Shown here piece by piece: positions 48,443-62,743 of a DNA stretch of 64,000 bases. Origin of the DNA: a virus; IMG/VR virus record IMGVR_UViG_3300043313_001220, positions 30,375 through 94,374 of that record; one strand, written 5' to 3'. The notes under the pieces were generated by a model. That model was not told the DNA's origin, did not search any database, and was given only the letters and a program-made list of their open reading frames with translations. The position numbers and the translations under genes were made by a program. The first letter of the stretch is position 1. Every line of letters begins with the position of its first letter.

Positions 48443-51214
48443 ATGGCTGGGACCAGATGGCGCGGACTGCTCGCACCGATCAACAAGCCGACCGGTGACG
48501 GCCGACGCATCGCCCCCGGCGGGTTCACCAACCGGCCCCTGCCGTTGCCATTGAAGTGGCAGCGGGCCGACAGCAACGGCCACGACGAATCAGTGACAGT
48601 CGGCGTGATCGATGTGCTCAACATCGACGAAGAGGCCGGGGAGGTGTGGGGTGAGGGCGAGCTGTTCGACGACGTCAACCCGGCCACCACCCCGCAACTC
48701 GCCGAGGATGCCGCCACCGCGCGCACCCTGATGGAGAAGCGCGTGGTCGGCCCGTCCGTCGACCCGGGCTCCGCACAGGCGACGGCGGTCATGACCGGCA
48801 TGGACCGCGCCCCGACGATGGCCGAGATCCAGCGGTTCTGCGACCAGAACGACGGCAACATGCCGCCAACGGAGATGCTGTTCACCGACTACGAGATCGC
48901 CGGTGCGACCCTGGTGCCGATCCCGGCGTTCTCCGAAGCCCGCCCGCTGGAGCTGATGGCAGCGGGGGCTGGTCTGACCGCGTCCAAGGTGCGTTCCGGC
49001 GGTTGGGACAGCCTGCCGATCGCCGCACGCGACCGGGCGTGGGACGGCGACGCCGCGAAAGCCCGCCTGGCCACCGACTGCGGCCTGGACGGCGACAGCC
49101 CCGATTGGGACTGCTACGCCTCCGGGTTCCTCTACCAGTATACCGACCGCGACCCGCAGACCCGCGGCGCGTACAGCTTCCCGGTGGTTGATGTCATCGA
49201 CGGGCAACGTCAGATCGTGCCGGCAGCGGTCTACGCGGCGGCCAACATCCTGTCCGGGGGGCGCGGCGGCACCGACATCCCCGCCGAGAAGCAGAAGGCG
49301 ATGCGCACCGTGGTCGCGTCGCTTTACAAGCGGCTGGCGAAGGAATTCGACGACGACAGTGTCCGCGCGCCGTGGGCCGGCAAGATGTCGGCCATCCTGG
49401 CGGCGGCGGGGTTGCCCCCGCTGGACGGATCGCTATTCCTCGACCCGGAGCTGGACCGGATCACCCCGTTGACCCGCGAGCCGATGGGCAACGGGTGGAC
49501 GCGGGTGTTTGGCCACATCGCCACCCACGACGTCTGCCTGGTCGGGCAGCCGGGTGGGGTGTGCACCACAGCGCCGTTCAGTGACCAGGACTACCAGACC
49601 TTCCACCGCTACCACCGGACTGCCGGCGGGGTCGAGTTGCCGCTCGCGGTCGGTCGTCTGACCGCAGCGCACGGCCAGCTGTCGGCCACCTGCCGGTGCT
49701 GCCCCGGCAATGATGACCACGCGTGCAACAACGTCGGGTTCGGTGCGGCGGTCGCGCACCACGACCGGATGCGGGTGCTGGCTTATGGCCGGGCGGGCGA
49801 GGACGAGCGGAACAACGCGATCTGGTTTGCCGGGGTCGAGGCCCCGGAGGTGGACGAGCGTGACGTCAAGCTCTTGAACCGCCGGAAGGTCTCCGGCGAC
49901 TGGCGCGAGACCGCAGGCAACATGGAGCTGGTGGAGATCCTGGTGCTGTCACGCCGGGAGCCCGGCTTCCCGCTACCGCGGGTGTCGGTGGAGAACGGCC
50001 GGCAGCGCTCGCTGACCGCTGCCAGCCCGATCGGGGCGATCATCGAACGGGAAGGCGGCCAGGCGGAGGTGATCGACACCGGGCAGCTCGGCGAGGCGAT
50101 CGGTCTCGCGGTCGCGGGAGTGCTGGGCGAGTTCGGATTGAATCCGAGGCAGAGACGCGAGCCGGAGCCGCCGGATGCCGGCCAGGGTGGCGGAGACAGC
50201 CCGGTGGCAGATCGGGGGCGCGGGGCATATAATGCTGCCGTAATGAACGGAGCGCTAGCGGCTCAGGCCGAGAACGAAGGCGACCCGGACGACGAGCTGG
50301 AGAGCCAGATGGGGTTCATCCAGGGATTGATGGGCGAGCAGGACGTCGACAGCAGCCTGGAGATCAATATGGCGGTCGACCACCTACGAGAGATGCTGCT
50401 GCGGAGCTATCTGGACGTCGAAGACCTGCCGGAGTTCGACACGGATGGTCTCCCGGCGGTTACCGCTGCCGCAGCCGTCCACACCGGGGCGATGGTCGCC
50501 TTGCGGATGAGCGAGGCCGATGCCGCCCGACTGGCTGTGACTGACGGCGAGCCGCTGGACCAGCTACACCTGACGCTGGCCTACCTCGGGGATGCCGACC
50601 AGATCCCGCCGGAGGTCCGGGAGAAGATCGCCGCGAGGATGGGCCGGGTCGCTGGCAGTTACAAGGAGCCGTTGGTCGGGGACGGTTTCGCAGTCGATGT
50701 GTTCAACCCCGGGACGGCCAACAACCGGGACACGGCGATCGTGATGGGCGTGGGCGGTCAGTCGGTGGCCGACGTGCATGAAGCGGTCATGGGCGGGCTC
50801 GGCGACATCGAGGAGCTCTCGATGCCCGAGCAACACGCCCCGTGGGTGCCCCACACGACCTTGCAGTACACCGACGATCTGAACCGCGTCAAGGCCCTCG
50901 CGGACCGGGTCGGGCCGGTGACGTTCGACCGGCTGCGGCTTGCGTTCGGCGGCGAGGTCACCGACATCCCGATCGGGGCTGCGACCGCCGAGGGTGGCGA
51001 CGAGGATGACCAGCAAGGCGCGGCATTTGCGAGCGGTATCGAAGGCGGTAAGATGTGCGCCAAGATGGGCTGCGGCAAGAACAGCACCGAGTGCGCCACC
51101 TGTACCGACTGCACCCCAGCAGTGCTGGGGACCCGCGCGCAGGCGGCGACGCTGGCCCTGCGGGCGACCCTGGCGGCCAGCCAGCTCGGGTGCTGCAAGA
51201 CCCCCGCGAGATGA
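48443..51214 (+). CDS. Capsid maturation protease fused to a 2H phosphoesterase domain
   Basis: A 923-residue multidomain protein. Residues 1-180 resemble actinophage prohead proteases (GLLAPINKPTGDGRRIAPGG, VVGPSVDPGSA, FTDYEIAGATLVPIPAFSEA). Residues 190-310 form the SLPIAARDRAWDGDAAK domain that often accompanies them. Residues about 610-655 repeat the module found in the small protein at 43156. Residues about 690-860 carry the two H-x-T motifs of 2H/2'-5' RNA ligase-like phosphoesterases (LHLTLAYLG at about 708, PHTTLQY at about 803). The last 50 residues are cysteine-rich (CAKMGCGKNSTECATCTDC). The 2H domain could cleave cyclic or 2'-5' nucleotides. Confidence 0.72.
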   Translation: MAGTRWRGLLAPINKPTGDGRRIAPGGFTNRPLPLPLKWQRADSNGHDESVTVGVIDVLNIDEEAGEVWGEGELFDDVNPATTPQLAEDAATARTLMEKRVVGPSVDPGSAQATAVMTGMDRAPTMAEIQRFCDQNDGNMPPTEMLFTDYEIAGATLVPIPAFSEARPLELMAAGAGLTASKVRSGGWDSLPIAARDRAWDGDAAKARLATDCGLDGDSPDWDCYASGFLYQYTDRDPQTRGAYSFPVVDVIDGQRQIVPAAVYAAANILSGGRGGTDIPAEKQKAMRTVVASLYKRLAKEFDDDSVRAPWAGKMSAILAAAGLPPLDGSLFLDPELDRITPLTREPMGNGWTRVFGHIATHDVCLVGQPGGVCTTAPFSDQDYQTFHRYHRTAGGVELPLAVGRLTAAHGQLSATCRCCPGNDDHACNNVGFGAAVAHHDRMRVLAYGRAGEDERNNAIWFAGVEAPEVDERDVKLLNRRKVSGDWRETAGNMELVEILVLSRREPGFPLPRVSVENGRQRSLTAASPIGAIIEREGGQAEVIDTGQLGEAIGLAVAGVLGEFGLNPRQRREPEPPDAGQGGGDSPVADRGRGAYNAAVMNGALAAQAENEGDPDDELESQMGFIQGLMGEQDVDSSLEINMAVDHLREMLLRSYLDVEDLPEFDTDGLPAVTAAAAVHTGAMVALRMSEADAARLAVTDGEPLDQLHLTLAYLGDADQIPPEVREKIAARMGRVAGSYKEPLVGDGFAVDVFNPGTANNRDTAIVMGVGGQSVADVHEAVMGGLGDIEELSMPEQHAPWVPHTTLQYTDDLNRVKALADRVGPVTFDRLRLAFGGEVTDIPIGAATAEGGDEDDQQGAAFASGIEGGKMCAKMGCGKNSTECATCTDCTPAVLGTRAQAATLALRATLAASQLGCCKTPAR

Positions 51215-51362: not shown

Positions 51363-51646
51363 GCCCGTTCGGCGTTGGCATCCCGGTTCATTATGTCGCC
51401 CGAGGGTCGGCAGACGGCAGGTTCCCGTCGATCTGCCGCGCCGCCTGGGTCACCGAGATCGACGCGGACGACCCGGACACGGTCGGTGTGTTCGTCGCCA
51501 ATCCAACGGGGCTGTTTTTTTACAGCCTCGGGGACGGTGGTCTGCCTTACGACGACGGCCACCCGCCGGACGGCTCTCTGGGGGCGACATGCGGTGACGG
51601 CATGATCTATCCGGGCGGCACCTGGCACCGGCCGCCGGGGGCGTGA
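51359..51646 (+). CDS. Small hypothetical protein
   Basis: A 95-residue protein starting VSPFGVGIPVHYVARGSADG, strand-rich, with FYSLGDGGLPYDDGHPPDGS and ending in a GGTWHRPPG motif common in actinophage small proteins. GTGA-coupled. A run of eight T (sense) at about 51516 encodes a Phe pair. Confidence 0.6.
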   Translation: MSPFGVGIPVHYVARGSADGRFPSICRAAWVTEIDADDPDTVGVFVANPTGLFFYSLGDGGLPYDDGHPPDGSLGATCGDGMIYPGGTWHRPPGA

Positions 51647-53031
51647 ATATGGACCTGTCGATCCGCGCCCGCGCTGCCACCGCCATCTTCGACATGGCGA
51701 CGTTCGGCTTCAACCCCGGCCAGAAGCGCGGTCCGGATGGCCGGTTCATCAAGATGGGCGGGCGCGGCAGTGCCGGCAAGGGCGGCCTTCCGAAAGGCGC
51801 GCGGCCCAGTGAAGGCGGCGGGGCCGGTGCTGGTGGTGGTGGCGGCACCCTCCCGGCCGCGACGCCTCCTCCACCTGCTCCCGCCGCGCCCCGCCGCATG
51901 GACGAGCTGGATCGACGGATCGCCGACAATGAGCAGTTGATCAACGAACCCGGCGAGGAATACCTCGCCGACCGTCGCCGCGCCGATCTGGAGATCCAGA
52001 AGAAGGCGCGAGCCACGTTCGGAGACCCCGAGCCGGGCGAGACGGACGCCGAACACGAGGCTCGGGTGTTCTCGAAGATCAAAGCGGCTGCGGCTGTCGT
52101 AGATGACGCGAAGGCCGCAGGCTGGGTGTCGCGCGTTACCCACGGTACGGACATCAGCGGCATGCCGTTCGTGACCGTCGAGGTGGGCAACCCCGACACG
52201 AAAGAGACCTTCAGCACGACCTGGCACACCCGCAAGAACGGCACCTACCAGCTGTTCAGTCAGTCGACGGTGACGCGGGTTAGCGACAAAGGCATATTTG
52301 AGGGTGGCCGGAGATACGGCAGCGAGCGCACACCCACCAAGCTCCGCGAGATCATGGCACAGGAACCCGCGGCAGGCGCTCCGGCTGCTCCTGCGAACCC
52401 GGCGGCGGCCACCCCGGGGATCGGGTCGGACGGCCAATACGTCAAACCGGTCAAGCAGGTCGCGACCTGGAACGGGCAGGTTGAGACCCGGACCTCTCGA
52501 CACCCATACAACTACGTGTCAGTCGTGCAATTCGGTGGCGACGAACCTGTGATCCTGTCGTGGCATCGCACCCGGGCGGCAGCCGAGAAAGGCACACTGA
52601 CCAAAAACCAGCGCGACAACGGGTCGCGGGTGGTCGCGGTGGCCGAAGTCAAACCGGAGCAGCCGGGGGAGAACGCCTCCGCCAGTGCTGAGGCGCAACG
52701 TCTCGACCGGCTGGTGAAGAACGCCACCACGATGTACGGGTCGGACGAGTCGAAGTGGCCGGCGCGGGCACAACAGGACGTCGCCCGACTGCGCAAGAAG
52801 CGGGCGGCGATGTCCAGCGATGCCGACGTCTTCGCGATGCCCGATGACCTTGCCGACCACTGGATCCACGGTGAAGGTGCGGCCAAGATCCGCTGGTGCA
52901 CGGAAGGGGCCTTCGAACGGGCGCGCAGGGCACTACGTGAGCACGTCCCCGCGCCGATGCTTGACGGCACGGTCGCCAACCTCTACAAGCGGGCATGTGG
53001 CAAGTGGCCGGGACAGGACCGGGACCAATGA
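51643..53031 (+). CDS. Module-bearing head-region protein, C-terminal domain unknown
   Basis: A 462-residue protein. The first 45 residues (DLSIRARAATAIFDMATFGF, NPGQKRGPDGRFIKMG) are the N-terminal module shared with the genes at 53392, 54462 and 55382. A Gly/Pro-rich linker follows, then two related strand-rich regions (about residues 170-215 and 280-320; the second has VSVVQFGGDEPVILSWHRTR) and a helical C-terminus with RRALREHVPAPMLDG. Function unknown. GTG at 51643 overlaps the previous stop; an ATG two codons later is an alternative. Confidence 0.65.
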   Translation: MNMDLSIRARAATAIFDMATFGFNPGQKRGPDGRFIKMGGRGSAGKGGLPKGARPSEGGGAGAGGGGGTLPAATPPPPAPAAPRRMDELDRRIADNEQLINEPGEEYLADRRRADLEIQKKARATFGDPEPGETDAEHEARVFSKIKAAAAVVDDAKAAGWVSRVTHGTDISGMPFVTVEVGNPDTKETFSTTWHTRKNGTYQLFSQSTVTRVSDKGIFEGGRRYGSERTPTKLREIMAQEPAAGAPAAPANPAAATPGIGSDGQYVKPVKQVATWNGQVETRTSRHPYNYVSVVQFGGDEPVILSWHRTRAAAEKGTLTKNQRDNGSRVVAVAEVKPEQPGENASASAEAQRLDRLVKNATTMYGSDESKWPARAQQDVARLRKKRAAMSSDADVFAMPDDLADHWIHGEGAAKIRWCTEGAFERARRALREHVPAPMLDGTVANLYKRACGKWPGQDRDQ

Positions 53032-53384
53032 GCGGGCTGCCACGAGCACTCGACACCCAGCGGGCCGCCTTCACTTTGGCCGCCCAACGCGCCAGGTTCG
53101 GCGCGATGCACACGCTGGCCGTGGAAGACCCGGTGCGGTACACTGCTGGCACGAGACTACCCGAGAGAGACACAGCCATGAGCACCCTGAATGTTACGGA
53201 CGTTGCCAGCGGCAACGTGCTCGACCGGGTCACACTCGACCCTGCCGGCAACCTGGGCTACGAGACCGGCGCGGCCCGCGACATGTTCGAGTCGCTGATC
53301 AACAGCCTCGGGATCACCCCGGCAGAGGCGTTCGAGATGCGGACCGGCTGGTCGAACGGCTACGTCTCCGCCAAGCTGATCTGA
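53028..53384 (+). CDS. Small hypothetical protein
   Basis: A 118-residue protein by the ATGA-coupled start at 53028; an internal ATG at 53178 preceded by GAGAGAGA would give 68 residues (MSTLNVTDVASGNVLDRVTL, ending TGWSNGYVSAKLI). The shorter form resembles small actinophage proteins ending in WSNGY. I cannot decide between them. Confidence 0.5.
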   Translation: MSGLPRALDTQRAAFTLAAQRARFGAMHTLAVEDPVRYTAGTRLPERDTAMSTLNVTDVASGNVLDRVTLDPAGNLGYETGAARDMFESLINSLGITPAEAFEMRTGWSNGYVSAKLI

Positions 53385-53391
53385 GGTCGGC

Positions 53392-54249
53392 ATGTCGATG
53401 GAGCTGCAGGCACGGGCGGCGGTGGCCCGCTTGACCCTCGATATGCTTGCATTTAACCCGCGTCAGCTGCGCGGGCCAGACGGTCGGTGGATCAAGAGCG
53501 GAGCCGGAGCGTCGCCACCTGCCGCAGCCCCCGCACCACCTCGTGTCGCACGCAAGCCGGCAGGACGGACCGGTGCCAACAGCTGGCTCGATGCCATCCG
53601 CCGGGGCGAGTCGACCGACGATGCCAAACGCCAGATCGGCGAGATGTTCGAGTACACCGACCCGCAGACCGGCTACCGGTCCGAGGTCACGCAGGTTAAC
53701 GCGAACGGCAGCGCCGAGCGGCCATCGTACTTCGCGATCATCTCGATCAAGGACCCGACGGGCCTGGAGGTTGGTCGGGCCACCCGCAGTGTCTGGCCGA
53801 TCAAGACCGACCCGTCGAAGTCCGGGGTGCAGCACGGGTCGTTCCTGCTGAGCAGACGCGTCCAGGGCGGCGGGTTCTCCAAGCGGTGGCTGGCCCAGAT
53901 GGAGGACCGCTACCGCGAGGCCGGCATCGACCGGATCACGCTGTTCACGGACGACGTCGGCGGGTACGCCTGGGCGAAAGCCGGGTTCGACTTCGAGAAC
54001 CGCGACGGCGCGAAACACGTTGCCTCCCTACTCGGTCGCAAACTGCGCTCCAAGGAGGGCAAGCGGGACCTGCCGCAGCGGGTGATCACCGATGGGGAGG
54101 AGCTGATCCGCCGGGCGCAGTCGACAGACCCGGAGGAGCGGCCGACGCCGATGGAGTTCGCGATGCTCGGTTGGACCCCAGGGGCGCAGACCTGGGTTGG
54201 CAAGGAGTCGATGTTGGGATCTGGGTGGGGAGGGGTGAAACGGCTATGA
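53392..54249 (+). CDS. GNAT-like acetyltransferase with N-terminal shared module
   Basis: A 285-residue protein. Residues 1-40 carry the shared module (LQARAAVARLTLDMLAFNPR, QLRGPDGRWIKSG). After a Pro/Ala linker comes a GNAT-like domain: SFLLSRRVQGGGFSKRWLAQ followed by MEDRYREAGIDRITLFT and VGGYAWAKAGFDFENR, which match the acetyl-CoA loop and the final strand-helix of GNATs. The tail EERPTPMEFAMLGWTPGAQT is almost identical in the neighbour at 54462, so the two are tandem paralogs. Confidence 0.65.
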   Translation: MSMELQARAAVARLTLDMLAFNPRQLRGPDGRWIKSGAGASPPAAAPAPPRVARKPAGRTGANSWLDAIRRGESTDDAKRQIGEMFEYTDPQTGYRSEVTQVNANGSAERPSYFAIISIKDPTGLEVGRATRSVWPIKTDPSKSGVQHGSFLLSRRVQGGGFSKRWLAQMEDRYREAGIDRITLFTDDVGGYAWAKAGFDFENRDGAKHVASLLGRKLRSKEGKRDLPQRVITDGEELIRRAQSTDPEERPTPMEFAMLGWTPGAQTWVGKESMLGSGWGGVKRL

Positions 54250-54437
54250 GCAGGCCGACACGCAAGACCGTGCTGAAGCAGCTGTCGGAGCTGAACGCAC
54301 GGTGGGTCGATCGTCTGGTGGCACAGGGGGCGACGACCGACGAGTACGGCCAGCCGGTCGGGGTGACACCCGACCAGGAGGACGAGTATCTGTCTGCGGT
54401 GCAGCGGGTGCTGAAAGGCGAGGGGGTCGGACGGTGA
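54246..54437 (+). CDS. Small hypothetical protein (63 aa)
   Basis: MSRPTRKTVLKQLSELNARW, helical and charged, ending EYLSAVQRVLKGEGVGR. ATGA overlap with the GNAT gene; its stop overlaps the GTG that looks like the ancestral start of the next gene. Confidence 0.55.
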   Translation: MSRPTRKTVLKQLSELNARWVDRLVAQGATTDEYGQPVGVTPDQEDEYLSAVQRVLKGEGVGR

Positions 54438-54461
54438 ATCTCAGCCTGCGGGCGCGCTGCT

Positions 54462-55385
54462 GTGGCCGCACTAGATCTGGCCGCACTAGATCTGGCCATC
54501 ATGGGGTTCAACCCCGGCCAACGTCGCGGTCCGGGTGGCCGGTGGATCAAGATGGGTGGCAAGGGTAGCGCAGGCGAATCGGGCCCTGCTGTAGGGCGCG
54601 CTCCCCGGCCCAAGAAGACCACCGGCAACACATCTCCCAGCGGCAAGACGGGCGGGGCGGTTGACATTATGGCCGACCTGAACGCGCGTGGCAAGAACCT
54701 CGAACGCAGGCAGGCCCTGGATGGGCCCGACACGCCTGCCAACATGGTTGAGTGGGCTGAACGGATGTTTGAGTTCAGCGACCCCCAGACTGGCTTCACG
54801 ACTCGGGTGTCCAGGGTGCGGGCGGCTGCCGCGCCAGATCCCGAGCTGGGGAAAGGGGCCTCCAACTTAGAAGCGGTTGTCGACGTCCTTGACGCGTCGG
54901 GCAAAAAGATCGGGTTCGCCGACCGACGGCTCGTATTCAACCGCGATGGTGACAAGCTGCAAATGTACCACCTGTCGTTCCATCTGGACCCGAAGGTCCA
55001 AGGTGGCGGGTTCTCCAGTCGTTGGCTGCGCCAGATGGAGGACCGCTACCGCCAGGAAGGCATAGATCGGATGGCCCTCACCGCCGCAGACAAGGTCGGC
55101 GGCTATGCGTGGGCGAAAGCGGGTTTTGATTTTGAACACCAGGCCGCAGCGGAGGGAGTGGCCGCCCGATTGAAGACGATGGAGAATCGACTTACCGCAG
55201 CCGGCATGTCTCCGGAAGTGAAAGCCGAGGGGGATGAACTGATCCGCCGCGCCAAGTCGGGCAATCCGGAGGAGCGGCCCACCCCTATGGAGTTCGCGAT
55301 GCTGGGCTGGACCCCCGGGGCCACGACCTGGCCCGGCAAGCAGTTGATGTTGGGTGCCGCCTGGGACGGGGTGAAAGAGCTGTGA
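54462..55385 (+). CDS. Second GNAT-like paralog with a disrupted N-terminus
   Basis: A 307-residue frame. The expected start is the GTG at 54434, whose frame encodes VNLSLRAR, exactly the beginning of the shared module, but after eight codons that frame leaves the module. The module continues in another frame from 54462 (VAALDLAALDLAIMGFNPGQ, RRGPGGRWIKMG). A 2-nt loss near 54452 would explain this. The sequence also holds an exact 15-bp tandem duplication (GCACTAGATCTGGCC twice, 54468-54497). The body has the GNAT-like region VQGGGFSSRWLRQMEDRYRQ and VGGYAWAKAGFDFEHQ. Translation could start at the GTG at 54462. Confidence 0.6.
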   Translation: MAALDLAALDLAIMGFNPGQRRGPGGRWIKMGGKGSAGESGPAVGRAPRPKKTTGNTSPSGKTGGAVDIMADLNARGKNLERRQALDGPDTPANMVEWAERMFEFSDPQTGFTTRVSRVRAAAAPDPELGKGASNLEAVVDVLDASGKKIGFADRRLVFNRDGDKLQMYHLSFHLDPKVQGGGFSSRWLRQMEDRYRQEGIDRMALTAADKVGGYAWAKAGFDFEHQAAAEGVAARLKTMENRLTAAGMSPEVKAEGDELIRRAKSGNPEERPTPMEFAMLGWTPGATTWPGKQLMLGAAWDGVKEL

Positions 55386-56701
55386 CACTTGATCTGCGGG
55401 CTCGCGCTGCCACGGCGTTGTTGGAGCTGGCATTCAACCCGCACCAGCGTCGCGGCCCGGACGGCAAGTGGGTCAAGATGCCCACCAATGAGCTGAAGCG
55501 GCCACGCAGGACGAAGAAGCCGCGTGCCGCCAAAGCTGTGGACGCTCCCGCCCCTGCCGGGATCCGGTCGGACGAGCTGCCCCCGATCAACCTGCCCGAC
55601 CCGATGGTCGAATACCGCCGGATCCGCGACGAGTACAACGATGCCGTCCTGTCGGTCGCCCGCTATGTGACCGACAAGAATGGCCTCGCCGGCAAGAAGG
55701 ACGACGATCTGGCCGAATATTTGGCTGCTGCGGAACAGCCCGGCGGAGAGTTCTTCAGCCAAGATGACGCCGTTGATGATCTGCGCAGTCTGCTGGACAC
55801 CCGATATCGGGATGTCGCCATGGGGCTGGACTGGACCCCCCAACTACCAGAGACACGCCCGGTGCCGCTCCTGCCGCCCGGTCCCCGCACCTCGGGGGGT
55901 CCGCGCCCGCCGCTCACCGACCGCTACGAGGACCGCCGGCAAGCACTGGACCGCAGCATCCGGTCCGGCATCGACGGCCAGGACCTCATCGGCGGCGGGG
56001 AGATGGGCGACACCCGTCGGATCCAGCTGGCCGACGGGACCGAGGCGATCTACAAGCGGGCCATGGGCGAGTGGACCGCCGGGTGGGGCAAGCGGGAGCA
56101 GACCGACGCGGAGGAGCTGGGGGCGATGGTGGCCGCTGCTGTCGGGGTTCGGGCCCCGGCGATCCAGCGTATCGACGACGAGACGCTGTACATGGAGGTC
56201 ATGCCGGGCAGGCCCGCCATGTCCGAGCGCATCCACAATGTCCCGAATGAGCTGGCCGACTCCCCCCAGGGCATACGGATGGGGCTGCTCGATGTGCTGT
56301 TGAACAACGTCGACCGCCACGGTGGCAACTGGATGATCGACGACCGGGGGCAGATCGCGGCGATCGACCACGGACTGGCATTCAAGGTCAAGACCACCGA
56401 CAGCTCCTCGGCCACCCGCAGCCGGTTCTCCACCGACCACTTCATCGACGATGTTGGCGGATATCGGGACCGGAACCCGCTGACCCGGCTCGATGTCGAG
56501 ATCGTGCGCCAGCAATTGGAGGCGATCCGGCCGCGGTTCGAGCAGCTCGGGCGGGGGGAGTGGTACGGGCAGGTCCTGGATCGTCTGGACAAGCTGTCTG
56601 CCCGCGCGGCGGGTTTCCGCAGTCTACTTGAGGACACCCCGGAGATGTTCTCTTCGAGAGCCGCAGCCGCAATGGCCATCCTGCGCAGCCCAGCGGTGTG
56701 A
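55382..56701 (+). CDS. HipA/PI-kinase-like protein with N-terminal shared module
   Basis: A 439-residue protein. Residues 1-33 are the shared module (TLDLRARAATALLELAFNPH, QRRGPDGKWVKM). After a linker and a helical region, residues 195-400 form a kinase-like domain: EAIYKRAMGEW (about 222, ATP-binding Lys), LYMEVMPG (hinge), LLNNVDRHGGNWMID (about 306, catalytic Asp and Asn) and IAAIDHGLAF (about 326, metal-binding Asp). These fit the HipA/FAM20/phosphatidylinositol-kinase-like fold. The substrate is unknown; proteins or small molecules are possible. GTGA-coupled. Confidence 0.7.
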   Translation: MTLDLRARAATALLELAFNPHQRRGPDGKWVKMPTNELKRPRRTKKPRAAKAVDAPAPAGIRSDELPPINLPDPMVEYRRIRDEYNDAVLSVARYVTDKNGLAGKKDDDLAEYLAAAEQPGGEFFSQDDAVDDLRSLLDTRYRDVAMGLDWTPQLPETRPVPLLPPGPRTSGGPRPPLTDRYEDRRQALDRSIRSGIDGQDLIGGGEMGDTRRIQLADGTEAIYKRAMGEWTAGWGKREQTDAEELGAMVAAAVGVRAPAIQRIDDETLYMEVMPGRPAMSERIHNVPNELADSPQGIRMGLLDVLLNNVDRHGGNWMIDDRGQIAAIDHGLAFKVKTTDSSSATRSRFSTDHFIDDVGGYRDRNPLTRLDVEIVRQQLEAIRPRFEQLGRGEWYGQVLDRLDKLSARAAGFRSLLEDTPEMFSSRAAAAMAILRSPAV

Positions 56702-57445: not shown

Positions 57446-57571
57446 TCAACTCTCCTCTGCGTGCGGATTAGTCTCGGTATCGATCAGCTTCAGATGGGGT
57501 GCGCACAGCCGCAAGATGGTAACCTCGCCGCTCGTCGTGTCGTGGATCAACGCCCTGAGTGTGTCGCCCAT
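57446..57571 (-). CDS. Small hypothetical protein (41 aa)
   Basis: MGDTLRALIHDTTSGEVTIL then RLCAPHLKLIDTETNPH. GGAGG lies six nucleotides before the ATG, and the ATG overlaps the upstream stop (ATGA). Found by direct translation. Confidence 0.6.
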   Translation of the reverse strand: MGDTLRALIHDTTSGEVTILRLCAPHLKLIDTETNPHAEES

Positions 57572-58458
57572 CAGAACCTCCATGGATGTTGGTCGGCCGG
57601 CAGGACGACTGCATTCCTAACCGTCCCACCATCCCAGGATGTGCCGCCCAGTTGGCTGTCGGGCGGCTCCTCCAGGGCGATCGAGGCGAACAGGTGGCCG
57701 TCGATCAGCTGCCGGGCCAGGTCCCTACTGACTGCCATGCCGAACGCCCACAATCCGCCCTTGCCATCGCCTTGCAATGAGTCGACCGTCCCGACCCAGT
57801 CGCTGGTCTCGCAATTCTTGCTGAGGGACATCAGCTGAGCCGGACCCCCGTCGTGCAGGACGTAGCGGCCGGAGCTGCGCAGCGTGCGGCCGTCCACCGA
57901 TGGGACGTCCAGCAGTGCGACCCGACTGCACCAACGCCACATCGGCGGATCCGGGACCTTCGACATGGGCGGCTCGAACAGCGTCATCTCGACCTGTAGG
58001 AACAGCTCCCGGGCGCGCGGCCACCGGGACCGCAACGTCACCTCCGTGCGGATCGGGTTCCACTCGTCCAGCTCCCGCAGGGCCTCCGACAGCTCCGACA
58101 GCTGGGTGGCGATCTGCGAGCGGTCCCGCTGATCGAGGTCCCACTTGGTGAGGCCGGCCAGCAGCCCGTCGATCGCCTTCTCCAGATTGTCGGTGCCCAT
58201 CGAGCCGAAGAACTCGTCCATCCGCGTGGTCGGCTCGTGGTCCTTGGACCACAGCGGTTCCCTGTCGACCAGGTACTGCCAATCGCTCCTCTTGGTCGCG
58301 TGTTCCAGGCCCTTCGCGGACCGCAGTCCGTAGCGCTGCCCGTCGTAGAACGACCCGGGACGCTTCACCGTCAGGAACGCGCACGGTGCGCCCCACTCGG
58401 CGGTCCAGTACTCGATCTCGATGTCGCTGCGGGTGAACGGGGGGGTCTTGTCGTTCAT
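57571..58458 (-). CDS. Hypothetical protein
   Basis: A 295-residue protein starting MNDKTPPFTRSDIEIEYWTA; ACAGGAG lies before this ATG, which I prefer to the ATG at 58476. Middle helices (LEKAIDGLLAGLTKWDLDQR), then a beta-rich C-terminal half with GTVDSLQGDGKGGLWAFGMA. No family recognised. Confidence 0.65.
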   Translation of the reverse strand: MNDKTPPFTRSDIEIEYWTAEWGAPCAFLTVKRPGSFYDGQRYGLRSAKGLEHATKRSDWQYLVDREPLWSKDHEPTTRMDEFFGSMGTDNLEKAIDGLLAGLTKWDLDQRDRSQIATQLSELSEALRELDEWNPIRTEVTLRSRWPRARELFLQVEMTLFEPPMSKVPDPPMWRWCSRVALLDVPSVDGRTLRSSGRYVLHDGGPAQLMSLSKNCETSDWVGTVDSLQGDGKGGLWAFGMAVSRDLARQLIDGHLFASIALEEPPDSQLGGTSWDGGTVRNAVVLPADQHPWRF

Positions 58459-58472
58459 CTCAATCTCCTGTC

Positions 58473-59015
58473 TCATCGGGTGTTGCTGCTCAGCAGGGCG
58501 GCAACGATCCGGTCCATATCCATATGCTTGCTCTCGCGCCCCGGCTTGACCGCCCGTATCGTCCGCTCCAGGAACGACAGCAGGCTCCGGCGCTGCACGT
58601 CGACATACAGACTCTCACCCCGGTATTCCGGATCGCCGGCGATAAACACCAGCTGGGTGACCGTCTCGGCCATCGGGACAGCCCGGAAGTCACCCATCCC
58701 CGCTGGCGTCTGCCACATCGCGGCACTGCACAGCACCTCGCGGGATACCAGCCAGCGGGCCAGGTCGTGGTCGCAGGTGGCGCACCAGGGATCGGTGGAG
58801 ATCGCCCAGACTGCCGGGTCGTGACCACACGATGGCCGCCGCTTCGGGGCGATCACGAGGTTGATGTCGTAGGGGTGATCCGCGCGGTAGACCATCGTCA
58901 GCACCAGGTGCAGACCGATCGGGCCGTGGGGGGTCTCGCGCCCCAGGCCGTCCATGTCGGCGCTGATCGGTCCTACAGGTGTGGGTGCGGGGCGGGGGGT
59001 TGGTGTGGTGGGCAT
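58473..59015 (-). CDS. Hypothetical protein with zinc-ribbon-like segment
   Basis: A 180-residue protein from the ATG at 59015 (MPTTPTPRPAPTPVGPISAD). It contains CGHDPAVWAISTDPWCATC, a C-x2-C plus upstream Cys/His, and a helical C-terminus. Its reading frame is open back to the membrane-protein start at 59462, so a 329-residue read-through product is formally possible. Confidence 0.6.
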   Translation of the reverse strand: MPTTPTPRPAPTPVGPISADMDGLGRETPHGPIGLHLVLTMVYRADHPYDINLVIAPKRRPSCGHDPAVWAISTDPWCATCDHDLARWLVSREVLCSAAMWQTPAGMGDFRAVPMAETVTQLVFIAGDPEYRGESLYVDVQRRSLLSFLERTIRAVKPGRESKHMDMDRIVAALLSSNTR

Positions 59016-59233
59016 TTCGCGGACTCCCAGCAGGTGTGATTGATCAGATGGGTGCGGGCTCGGACGGCCACCAGCCGGTGCGCTGTGCTGCTGGCCAGTA
59101 CGTGAACGCACTTGCACGAGTTCGGGCAGAGCAGCTTGTAGTGCCGCCGCCCACCTCCGGTTACGGTCCAGTTGCGTGCCAGCGCGTCTTTGACCAGCAG
59201 CCGAATATCCGTGTTGCTTGGCTGTGCGTACAC
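58973..59233 (-). CDS. HicA-like small protein
   Basis: An 86-residue protein starting VYAQPSNTDIRLLVKDALAR. The segment NWTVTGGGRRHYKLLCPNS and the following VHVLASSTAHR resemble the HicA double-stranded-RNA-binding fold used by phage-encoded HicA-like proteins; the key His is present. No HicB partner is recognised. GGAGAG precedes the GTG. It overlaps the neighbouring frame extensively. Confidence 0.5.
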   Translation of the reverse strand: MYAQPSNTDIRLLVKDALARNWTVTGGGRRHYKLLCPNSCKCVHVLASSTAHRLVAVRARTHLINHTCWESAKCPPHQPPAPHPHL

Positions 59234-59462
59234 GGCCTCTCCTTCCTGGTCGGGGGTTGGCAACCCCCGTGGCGAGCGAGCCGCCGATGAACACGAAGAG
59301 CAGGCCGATCGGCAGGCCGGTGGTGACATACCCCTCCGATGTGGTGAATTCGAGGTGGTCGCTGCTGGCTGTGGGGACGAGTGCGGCAGCGGTCCAGCCC
59401 GCGATCAGACCGGCGATGATCAGGGTCGCGGAGGTGATGCCCAGGCGGGTGCTGCGGCGCAT
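59234..59462 (-). CDS. Two-pass membrane protein, no stop before the next gene
   Basis: Begins MRRSTRLGITSATLIIAGLI and has two hydrophobic segments (residues 9-30 and 50-67). GGAGATCTGCC precedes the ATG. No stop codon follows in this frame until 58473; the interval given ends where the HicA-like gene begins. Either the natural stop has been lost or the protein is fused to the 58473 product. Confidence 0.5.
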
Positions 59463-59578
59463 GGCAGATCTCCTTCCCGGTCGGCGGGGGTGACGGTGTA
59501 GTGGCCGCTGAGCCACCCTGCCAGGTGCAGCAGGGCGCTGTAGGCCGTGAGCGGGTGGTAGGGGGTGTGGACGATGAT
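59420..59578 (-). CDS. Possible small protein with atypical start
   Basis: The frame reads IIVHTPYHPLTAYSALLHLA then GWLSGHYTVTPADREGDLP, which looks like real protein and sits 32 nt after a promoter with AGAAAGG upstream. No ATG, GTG or TTG is available; an ATC start would be needed. Confidence 0.3.
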   Translation of the reverse strand: MIVHTPYHPLTAYSALLHLAGWLSGHYTVTPADREGDLPCAAAPAWASPPRP

Positions 59579-59616
59579 CGCGGGGGGTGCCTTTCTGGCT
59601 GGGGGGTCTGGACTCC

Positions 59617-59645
59617 AGGGTACTATCTGTCACACGGCGTGGCAA
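59617..59645 (-). promoter_or_regulatory. Leftward promoter inside the second island
   Basis: TTGCCA, 17-nt spacer, TACCCT on the minus strand, within TGCCAC and TGTGAC half-sites. It reads the genes from 59578 to 57201. Confidence 0.55.
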
Positions 59646-59684
59646 CCAGCACGTTGGCGGGGGGCGAACCCCCCGCCTGGCGGT

Positions 59685-60581
59685 TCAGCCGATCTTGCAG
59701 CGGGTCAGGACCGTCTCCTTGCCGTGCTTCTCGGACTCGGCCAGCCTCTTCACCGTGCCGGTCAGCGTGACCTGCGCGCCAGCCTCGAACTCGTGGTAAC
59801 CCGTCCGGAACCAGGTCACCACATCACCCTCGGCGGTGGTCAGCTTGTAGAGGGTGCTGGTGCCCCACTCGCTCTCGGAGTGGTGCGGCCTGGCCAGTAT
59901 GCCGGTGGCCGAGATCTTCTCTTTCTCGAACCCGAGCCACTGGCGCTCGGCGATCTTGGCTTCTTTGGCCTCGCGGGCCGCCGCCCGCACCTCGTGATCC
60001 GCGGCCAGCTGACCCAACAACAGCTCCTGGTTGACGGTCAGCACGCTGTACAGCGCCCGACCGGCGAGGTCCAGCAGCAGCGGGGCGTGCTGGTCGGCCA
60101 CCCGCTGGCGGTTCTCCCAGCAGGCCTCCCGGCCGCAGTCGCCGCCGTGGCCGCAGTCGTTGAGCCGACCGAACCGCTCGGCGATCGCGGCGGTCTGCGG
60201 GTTCGCGGCCAGCCATTCGGCGTGCAGGCGGTCCTCTTCCAGCCGCTTGGCCTCGCGCTTGGCGGCCCGGCGGTCTGCGGCCTGCTCGCGGTTGCGGATC
60301 TTGCGGGCGACCTCCAGGGCCGTGCCGCGCCCGACCGCCCGACCGAGACCGCTGCCGGCACACGGCCAACAGCGCCCGGCGTCGATCCCACCATATTCGG
60401 GGCGGAATCCGGTGCCGGTGCAGGTCCCGCAGATCTCGACATAGCTCTCGCCGATCCGGGCGATCTGCTGCCCGTCGAAGTGCCGGTGGCCGTCGAGCTG
60501 GATCACCATGCCGGTGGTTCGCCCGTTGTGGCCGAAGGTGCGGGCTGTGATCTCGGTGAGCTGGATCGTGAGCTTCGCCAT
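59685..60581 (-). CDS. Hypothetical protein with DnaJ-type zinc finger
   Basis: A 298-residue protein. MAKLTIQLTEITARTFGHNG opens a beta-rich domain; CGTCTGTGFRPEYGGIDAGR followed by CWPCAGSG (residues about 52-78) is a DnaJ-like C-x2-C-x-G-x-G zinc finger. A long charged helix follows, then a C-terminal OB-like region (YKLTTAEGDVVTWFRTGYHE). Similar proteins occur in many actinophages without a known role. First gene of the second leftward island. Confidence 0.68.
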   Translation of the reverse strand: MAKLTIQLTEITARTFGHNGRTTGMVIQLDGHRHFDGQQIARIGESYVEICGTCTGTGFRPEYGGIDAGRCWPCAGSGLGRAVGRGTALEVARKIRNREQAADRRAAKREAKRLEEDRLHAEWLAANPQTAAIAERFGRLNDCGHGGDCGREACWENRQRVADQHAPLLLDLAGRALYSVLTVNQELLLGQLAADHEVRAAAREAKEAKIAERQWLGFEKEKISATGILARPHHSESEWGTSTLYKLTTAEGDVVTWFRTGYHEFEAGAQVTLTGTVKRLAESEKHGKETVLTRCKIG

Positions 60582-60624
60582 CGTGTCCTCCTGGGGGTCG
60601 GGGGGCGGAGCGCCCCACCCAACA

Positions 60625-60654
60625 ATTCTAACATCTTGACACACTGTGTGGCAA
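60625..60654 (-). promoter_or_regulatory. Leftward promoter of the second island
   Basis: TTGCCA, then TTAGAA after 17 nt or TAGAAT after 18 nt, on the minus strand; TGACAC lies 12 bp upstream of the TGCCAC element. Divergent from the capsid promoter. Confidence 0.65.
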
Positions 60655-60719
60655 GCCGGGTGTCACGACAAGTGCCATCCGATGTGTGAGGTTCACCACA
60701 CCACACCATGTCGACCACC

Positions 60720-60760
60720 TTGCGGCAACATGGCACGTCGAGGTACAATCGCGGCAAGGT
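60720..60760 (+). promoter_or_regulatory. Promoter of the capsid gene
   Basis: TTGCGG, 18-nt spacer, TACAAT (60744-60749), followed by CGCGGCAAGGT, which matches the element before the small terminase at 39686. It lies in a 314-nt intergenic region that holds no credible gene; the untranslated leader is about 140 nt. Confidence 0.6.
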
Positions 60761-60895
60761 GGAGGCGCTGCCACGGTCCGGCCGCCATCGAGTCGACTCG
60801 GTTCCACCCTGTTGACGTGCCAGTGCCGCTGCGGTCCGGCTGGGCGTGACGACTACAGACCATGTAGGCCCACCCAGTGCCAAGGAAGAGCAGCG

Positions 60896-62743
60896 ATGCC
60901 TGAAAACGACGAGACCGTAGCCCCGGTCCCGCACACGTTCCCATTCCCCGTCCCGGCCGACTTCGCCACGGCCAGCAACGACGACCTCACCGCGCTCTCG
61001 CAGCAGTTGGCCGACTATGCAGGTCCGTTCGGCAGCCGCGCCCCGCACGAGCACACCGAGGACTCGGTCGGCGCGCTGGAGGCTTCCGCAGCCCTGGCGG
61101 TCCGCATCCGCCAGACCATGTCGACCCGGCTGGAGGCTACTGGGGCCGCAGACGCGTCCATGTCGGAGCTCCAGGCGCTCGGCCAGACCGCCAACACCTT
61201 CGCGGCGGCGAACGTCGTCGAGCAGGCCCCCGAGGTCCTGGAGGGCACCGTCGAGGCGGCCCCCGCCGCGGTGACCGCCGCATCCGGCAGTCGCAACCCG
61301 GGCGTCCGTCAGATCGGCCGCAGCGCACAGCCGACCCAGCTCCCCGCGCAGATGACCGCCGGCAGTGCCCTGGCGACCATGAGCGCGTCGGCGGACGTCC
61401 CCGGCTTCACCTCCGGCCAGGACCTGCCGACGTTCAGCGACGCCGCCCGAGCTCTCGCGGCCCGGATGGACAAGTACCCGACCATGACCGCCGGTCGGGC
61501 GAAGGCGCAGATGTCGAAGACCGGCCAGCGGATGCGGCCGATCACCACCTACGACCCGCAGGGTCGCAAGCTGGAGATGAAGAGCTACACCCGCCACGGC
61601 GCGGTGCAGTTCCAGCGCAACTTCCCGGACGAGCTGCGGGTGGTCGACGGTACCAACGGCTACAGCATCGCGGAATACGCCTCCAGCGAGCGGCGGCTGT
61701 TCGGCGGCAACCTGATGGAGTCGGCCAAGAACCGGGTCGTCACCGAGAAGCGCGGTCTGACCGCCGCCGCCGCCTGGTGTGCCGCATCTGAGGTCATCTA
61801 CCAGCTGTGCGAGCTGGAGAGCCTCAGCGGCCTGCTGTCGACCCCGGAGCTGCAGACCAGCCGCGGCGGCTGGCAGATCCCGGAGCTCGGCGGCCCCGAC
61901 TTCGCCTACATCTGGAACAACATCGGCAACGCAGGTGACACCCACCTGTCGGAGGCCGACGTCCAGGAGGACGTGGCGAAGATCTGTACCGAGATCCCCT
62001 GCCCGGACTTCGAGGACATCCGGCTCGGCGTGGACTACGTCTGCCTCACCGGCGGCCTACTCCAGCGTCGCGGCTACCCGGAGATCGTCGCCCGGTTCTC
62101 CCGGGGTGCGATGGTCGCACTGGCCCACAAGATGAACCGCGGTTTCATCGCGGACCTCGTGGCCGCATCCGGCCCGGCCATCGTGGTCCCGCAGATCGTC
62201 AACGGTGATGACGCCGCGTCGGCGATCCTCGCCGCGGTCGAGATGGCGATCGTCGACATCAAGTACCGCAACCGGATGGAGTTCGGCACCACCCTTGAGG
62301 TGGTCATGCCGATGTGGTTCCTGGCGCAGATCCGTGCGGCGCTGTCGCGTCGTCGGGGTGTCGCCCTGCTGTCGGTGTCCGACGCGGAGATCCTCGACTG
62401 GTTCACGATGCGCCGTGCGGTCCCGCAGTTCGTCTACGACTGGCAGGACGCGTTCTCCGACCTGCCGGGCGGTCCCGGTGCCGCAGACCCGATCGAGGCG
62501 CTGCCGACTTCCGGCCTGTTCCTGGTCTACCCCGCCGGCACGTGGGTCAAGGCAGTGCAGGACGTGGTCAGCCTCGACACGATCTACGACAGCACCAACC
62601 TGCAGACCAACCAGTACACGGCCATCTTCGCGGAGGACGGCTGGGCACCGCTCCAGATGTGCCCGGACTCCCGCCTCTACGAGGTGGCGCTCGACCCGTC
62701 CGGTGTCGTGGGCTGCTGCCCGCCCGAGCTGATCAGCTTCTGA
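60896..62743 (+). CDS. Major capsid protein with N-terminal scaffold-like region
   Basis: A 615-residue protein preceded by AAGGAAGAG. Residues 1-200 are helical, Ala/Thr-rich and low in complexity, as expected for a fused scaffolding (delta) domain. Residues 260-615 are the HK97-type capsid body seen in actinophages: DELRVVDGTNGYSIAEYASS, LSEADVQEDVAKICTEIPCP, DFEDIRLGVDYVCLTGGLLQ and GTTLEVVMPMWFLAQIRAAL. The protease at 48443 would remove the N-terminal part. Confidence 0.85.
   Translation: MPENDETVAPVPHTFPFPVPADFATASNDDLTALSQQLADYAGPFGSRAPHEHTEDSVGALEASAALAVRIRQTMSTRLEATGAADASMSELQALGQTANTFAAANVVEQAPEVLEGTVEAAPAAVTAASGSRNPGVRQIGRSAQPTQLPAQMTAGSALATMSASADVPGFTSGQDLPTFSDAARALAARMDKYPTMTAGRAKAQMSKTGQRMRPITTYDPQGRKLEMKSYTRHGAVQFQRNFPDELRVVDGTNGYSIAEYASSERRLFGGNLMESAKNRVVTEKRGLTAAAAWCAASEVIYQLCELESLSGLLSTPELQTSRGGWQIPELGGPDFAYIWNNIGNAGDTHLSEADVQEDVAKICTEIPCPDFEDIRLGVDYVCLTGGLLQRRGYPEIVARFSRGAMVALAHKMNRGFIADLVAASGPAIVVPQIVNGDDAASAILAAVEMAIVDIKYRNRMEFGTTLEVVMPMWFLAQIRAALSRRRGVALLSVSDAEILDWFTMRRAVPQFVYDWQDAFSDLPGGPGAADPIEALPTSGLFLVYPAGTWVKAVQDVVSLDTIYDSTNLQTNQYTAIFAEDGWAPLQMCPDSRLYEVALDPSGVVGCCPPELISF

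Follow-up and report, generated by a model that had tools for sequence, protein, structure and literature searches.

We analysed a 64,000-nucleotide stretch of viral DNA (the window), bases 30375-94374 of the linear, 94,374-base IMG/VR record IMGVR_UViG_3300043313_001220, which derives from a phage of soil actinobacteria. Among its head genes lies a cassette of four genes, here genes 1 to 4, which start with the same N-terminal module and continue into bodies of different kinds. Comparison with the sequences of other phages suggests that the cassette products are probably virion cargo. That the module is the tag which loads or places this cargo in the prohead is a reading we favour by a small measure.

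A common N-terminal module

The preliminary description of this DNA, made from the letters alone, had reported four plus-strand open reading frames (ORFs) sharing an N-terminal module, and both the frames and the module were found again (Table 1). In all four the layout is LxxRARAAxAxLxLA, followed by FNPxQxRGPDGRW, a hydrophobic residue and K. A profile search with the module alone had been proposed as a check; to avoid circularity, we trained a hidden Markov model (HMM) on 20 motif instances, all from outside the window. Within the 94 kb it matches only the four window copies, with scores of 39.0, 37.1, 35.2 and 25.7 bits (E 3e-11 to 5e-7), the top score for ORFs with shuffled residues being 13.7 bits in 20 trials. 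A seemingly worn fifth copy in the protease (FGLNPRQRREPEP, LNPRQRREPEP, around position 50132, plus strand) was rejected, as its score is at chance level (E 1.4).

The description had itself named an outcome that would overturn it, namely that the module proves to be a generic piece of a single known domain. This is ruled out: no Pfam family spans the module, and only weak, differing PHROG matches (phrog_5234, phrog_12708) touch it. The bodies behind it, on the other hand, number three rather than the four first described, since genes 2 and 3 are paralogous along their whole length (45%, 297 aa). Genes 1, 2/3 and 4 resemble one another solely in the module and the adjoining low-complexity stretch, such that a short N-terminal sequence is common to otherwise unrelated proteins.

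The same cargo fused to head proteins

What most favours reading the module as a stand-in for fusion is that the same cargo families are found in two forms, as part of a head protein or on their own with the module. In Micromonospora phage pMLP1, a homologue of the gene 4 kinase (36% over 185 aa) makes up the C-terminal portion of a protein of 648 residues, residues 1-360 of which are Phage_min_cap2 (E 2e-75), and in gp5 of Microbacterium phage Jera a homologue of the gene 3 GNAT domain follows Phage_min_cap2 (E 4e-40). These fusions share with the cassette the kinase and GNAT families and a place in an actinophage head gene cluster, but their cargo is covalently attached to the minor capsid protein, and by inspection the FNPxQxRGPDGRW module is absent from both.

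The domain labels were examined gene by gene. The GNAT-like assignment of genes 2 and 3 is borne out by an AlphaFold model of gene 3 (mean predicted local distance difference test, pLDDT, of 71; GNAT domain mostly confident, module of low confidence), by the Foldseek matches to this model, which are GNATs, and by the VQGGGFS acetyl-CoA loop, which along with WAKAGFDF is shared with relatives; the Pfam GNAT score of 18.7 bits lies slightly under the 20.7 cut-off. The label of gene 4 as phosphatidylinositol (PI)-kinase-like likewise holds, PF00454 scoring above its cut-off (Table 1). Its catalytic motifs, DRHGGNW (of the DRHxxN type) and IDHG, are intact and kept in relatives, and its profile weakly matches PI4K and FAM20B structures; the AlphaFold model of gene 4 (pLDDT 36) was unusable. 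Finally, the part of gene 1 described as an unknown domain is now resolved for its last 64 residues, which match phrog_6439, while the remainder is without family match and a search of IMG/VR with full-length gene 1 found no relatives. The phrog_6439 domain is present in 102 phage records, the carriers among the 40 listed being mostly genes annotated as capsid maturation protease or protease-MuF fusion, and at 179 IMG/VR loci; it also occurs within a Mu-type portal (L044).

The start of gene 3 requires revision. The listed start at 54462 lies at an internal GTG that lacks a ribosome-binding site, and we prefer the GTG at 54434, which follows GAGGGGG, a good ribosome-binding site. From there, frame 2 encodes the first eight residues, VNLSLRAR, and the remaining module and the body are in frame 3. 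The apparent one-base shift, with a 15-bp tandem repeat beside it within the module, may represent an assembly error, a real lesion or a frameshift.

The motif in other phages and genomes

Searching IMG/VR and GTDB genomes with degenerate DNA patterns gave further motif loci, 24 of them viral and a few genomic. The patterns impose part of the motif, and the conserved columns of alignment A2 are in part a product of them (F, NP, Q, R, P and G); we therefore draw no argument for conservation from these columns. Many of the contigs are fragments with uncertain starts, several functional labels are our own reading of sequences without family match, and in the genome scans only the best candidates of the first look were scored.

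In IMG/VR the motif recurs as FNPxQPRxPDGKW at the N-terminus of free-standing head-region genes. It is placed near the N-terminus of free-standing zeta toxins (L016, L112) and of a free-standing ART (L035), among others, and two further free-standing carriers (L022, L029) match the C-terminal region of a head-protease PHROG. Elsewhere it is part of larger proteins: after a portal domain (with a zeta toxin in L040 and an ART in L042; also L015 and L044), after a portal and an Acb1-like 2H domain (L043), after a MuF domain (Frankia L025), in prohead-protease proteins (L036, S78; L041, Mu-like I protein), and repeated between domains (L034; L039; L046, ART then GNAT; L123, 2H then ART). In records with a detected portal or MuF, the motif is either part of that ORF or follows it by no more than 8 kb on the same strand, and for seven long records the chance of such an arrangement under random placement is about 3e-13. 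One locus (L069) has the layout of the window: portal, MuF/protease fusion, tagged gene.

A scan of 394 genomes of Actinomycetia matched the two seeds and none of the other 392, and among 289 genomes of Alphaproteobacteria four match, seed included; one of the alphaproteobacterial matches (L065) lies, by eye, within a portal-like ORF. A tblastn search of phages and plasmids with the 35-residue consensus gave no match, likely reflecting the limits of short queries. In genome contigs a strict GC-rich codon pattern had no match and a looser one gave 11 loci, from which L026 and L028 were discarded because the motif is not uninterrupted in-frame, and L027 and L031 as likely chance; the pattern DPxxHPRGPxGKF found a single locus.

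Some carriers displayed other features. The portal gene of L015 (2-3922, minus strand) contains an intein with LAGLIDADG and splicing domains, as well as two motif copies after the portal domain. Other short sequences precede cargo elsewhere: HDQKTHGNWA is repeated before cargo domains in L013, a GGxGSGPQG-type sequence stands ahead of each repeated domain in L012, RVPKGxxGGGQF precedes a kinase encoded between terminase and portal in L006 and L009, and RDSKGRF is another short repeat ahead of cargo in L073. These may be parallel tags.

Probable packaging and the proposed role of the module

From these comparisons we infer that the cassette products would be built into the phage head and delivered along with the DNA, the set comprising two acetyltransferases, a PI3/PI4-kinase-like kinase and one protein with a C-terminal domain of head-protein type. 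The module, leader plus FNPxQxRGPDGRW, would serve as a transferable tag for cargo, binding to a head component (perhaps the portal, MuF or the protease) while the prohead is assembled and allowing free-standing enzymes to be co-packaged without fusion to a structural protein. Following injection, the cargo may act on host targets early in infection. The preliminary description had proposed prohead cargo with a targeting module; the cargo half is supported by the fusions in which minor capsid, protease or portal proteins carry the same domains, and by where the motif sits in other phages.

The targeting half is held more loosely, because the motif is also kept in portal and MuF fusions and between successive cargo domains, where targeting is needless. 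This is the main difficulty, and in such fused proteins the motif may be a relic, serve release by a protease or have a role at ejection. Several further points weigh against a targeting role: for carriers as unrelated as these no shared receptor is obvious, and the comparison with fusions that lack the module rests on two phages. The short hydrophobic helix first described for the leader is plausible, yet it is of low confidence in both structure models, its amphipathicity is not significantly higher than that of shuffled sequence, and it is not conserved outside the window phage. Thus, the core FNPxQxRxPDGKW is the better functional candidate.

The best of the alternatives, though an unlikely one, treats the motif as a site of processing or release, at which the prohead protease or another protease cuts to free each packaged enzyme. 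It would account for the motif separating successive domains of one polypeptide (L034, L039, L046, L123) or standing between portal or MuF and cargo (L025, L040, L042), and the cutting of multidomain head-packaged proteins by proteases is a theme already described (PMC5512222). However, the motif is kept at the extreme start of free-standing proteins, where there is little to release, the pMLP1 and Jera fusions lack it, and these proteases have no known cleavage consensus.

Somewhat less probable still is a scar of domain shuffling, that is, a functionless linker recombining with cargo cassettes. The motif does move with cargo across unrelated carriers, and the DNA of genes 1 and 3 is 84% identical over 56 bp, in the module region only, with codons matching at 11 of 14 identical residues; these two genes may have swapped the stretch more recently. 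For genes 1 and 2 (6/13) and genes 2 and 3 (5/12), in contrast, codon matching is about what codon usage predicts although the peptide is kept, which argues that selection maintains the peptide rather than the DNA, and at the N-terminus of single-gene proteins there is nothing to link. Finally, the minus-strand block between protease and capsid in both the window phage and phage phiAsp2 indicates that this interval accepts non-structural genes, but unpackaged proteins of moron type, acting in the infected or lysogenic cell with a module that binds some other phage or host factor, are improbable given that minor capsid, protease and portal proteins carry the same domains as covalent fusions, and that motif genes are consistently co-oriented with head genes in other phages.

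Relation to known systems

The internal proteins of phage T4 are a highly diverse set whose only common part is the capsid-targeting sequence (CTS) (PMC3012670). By analogy, the tagged cassette may work like the CTS system, in that diverse early-infection effectors have only a short N-terminal sequence in common. T4 differs in belonging to another phage group, and the window-type motif is also found within proteins fused to structural ones. We saw no relation in sequence, though no alignment was made, and we claim functional likeness only, neither membership nor homology.

Under the names of MuF toxins and polyvalent proteins, effectors fused to head proteins have been described, among them ARTs, GNATs, kinases and 2H domains (PMC5576092, PMC5512222, PMC9503650). 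MuF polymorphic toxins (Jamet et al. 2017, PMC5576092) resemble the cassette in tying variable effectors to head proteins encoded beside the portal gene, whereas the window effectors are separate genes with a short tag and not C-terminal parts of MuF; family profiles match no MuF domain in genes 1 to 4, MuF being a separate gene. Polyvalent proteins (Iyer et al. 2017, PMC5512222) have GNAT, kinase, ART and 2H domains that are predicted to be head-packaged and injected. They are, however, multidomain polypeptides, for which the available text describes no common N-terminal tag, while the window genes have one recognised domain each instead of several disparate ones per polypeptide.

Genomic setting

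The structural genes run from the portal (45484) through a MuF-type head protein (47409), the protease, the cassette and minus-strand ORFs to the major capsid protein, the nearest match of which is in Actinoplanes phage phiAsp2 (Table 1). Family matches and the capsid comparison agree with the first placement of the cassette between maturation protease and capsid. In phiAsp2 this interval contains minus-strand genes only, and a cassette of this type is absent.

Table 1. Positions in the window of the cassette, its modules and domains, and neighbouring genes.
Feature	Position	Strand	Support
Head maturation protease fused to 2H phosphoesterase domain (PF13563)	48443..51214	+	Pfam/PHROG matches
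Tagged cassette, four genes	51643-56701	+	
Gene 1, 462 aa: module, Gly/Pro-rich linker, uncharacterised middle region, C-terminal phrog_6439 domain	51643..53031	+	
Module of gene 1, MDLSIRARAATAIFDMATFGFNPGQKRGPDGRFIKMGGRG	51649..51768	+	E 5e-10, profile without window sequences
C-terminal domain of gene 1	52834..53025	+	phrog_6439, E 1e-16
Small ORF between genes 1 and 2, without module	53181..53384	+	
Gene 2, 285 aa: module and GNAT domain, paralogue of gene 3	53392..54249	+	
Module of gene 2	53398..53511	+	E 3e-11, outside-window profile
Small ORF between tagged genes, without module	about 54246-54437	+	
Gene 3: module and GNAT domain (listed ORF 54462-55385, 307 aa)	54434..55385	+	
Module of gene 3, split over two frames	54434..54566	+	E 5e-7, outside-window profile
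GNAT domain of gene 3	54726..55382	+	VQGGGFS acetyl-CoA loop, WAKAGFDF
Gene 4, 439 aa: module and PI3/PI4-kinase-like domain	55382..56701	+	
Module of gene 4	55385..55492	+	E 1e-10, outside-window profile
Kinase-like domain of gene 4, DRHGGNW ... IDHG	55979..56632	+	PF00454, 39.1 vs 27.1 bits
Minus-strand ORF block	57571-60644	-	
Major capsid protein	60686..62743	+	54% identity to phiAsp2 over 450 aa

The second of the small ORFs resembles, by eye, the ORF that follows a GNAT homologue in L010. In the minus-strand block, the C-terminal 100 residues of ORF 58473-59645 match the SsgD spore-wall regulator family at 39.8 bits, under the curated cut-off; a phage-borne SsgA-like protein would indicate a sporulating actinomycete host. 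The window protease carries a 2H domain, and in L043 the domain between portal and motif is Acb1, an anti-CBASS enzyme, making head-borne anti-CBASS enzymes a testable idea.

Significance

Head-packaged effectors are already known, but a shared tag seems undescribed; a full-text search of one open-access library with the motif strings returned no paper reporting it. It is conceivable, if rather doubtful, that FNPxQxRxPDGKW is a general transferable head tag of tailed phages, loading or releasing injected enzymes in unrelated actinobacterial, alphaproteobacterial and other phages. Head-packaged effectors are usually recognised only through fusion to MuF, portal or protease, or through homology. 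If the tag were general, a short peptide alone would be enough to spot head effectors whatever the phage genome. A peptide tag would expose the free-standing ones and provide a testable handle on protein loading and ejection in the heads of phages outside the T4 group.

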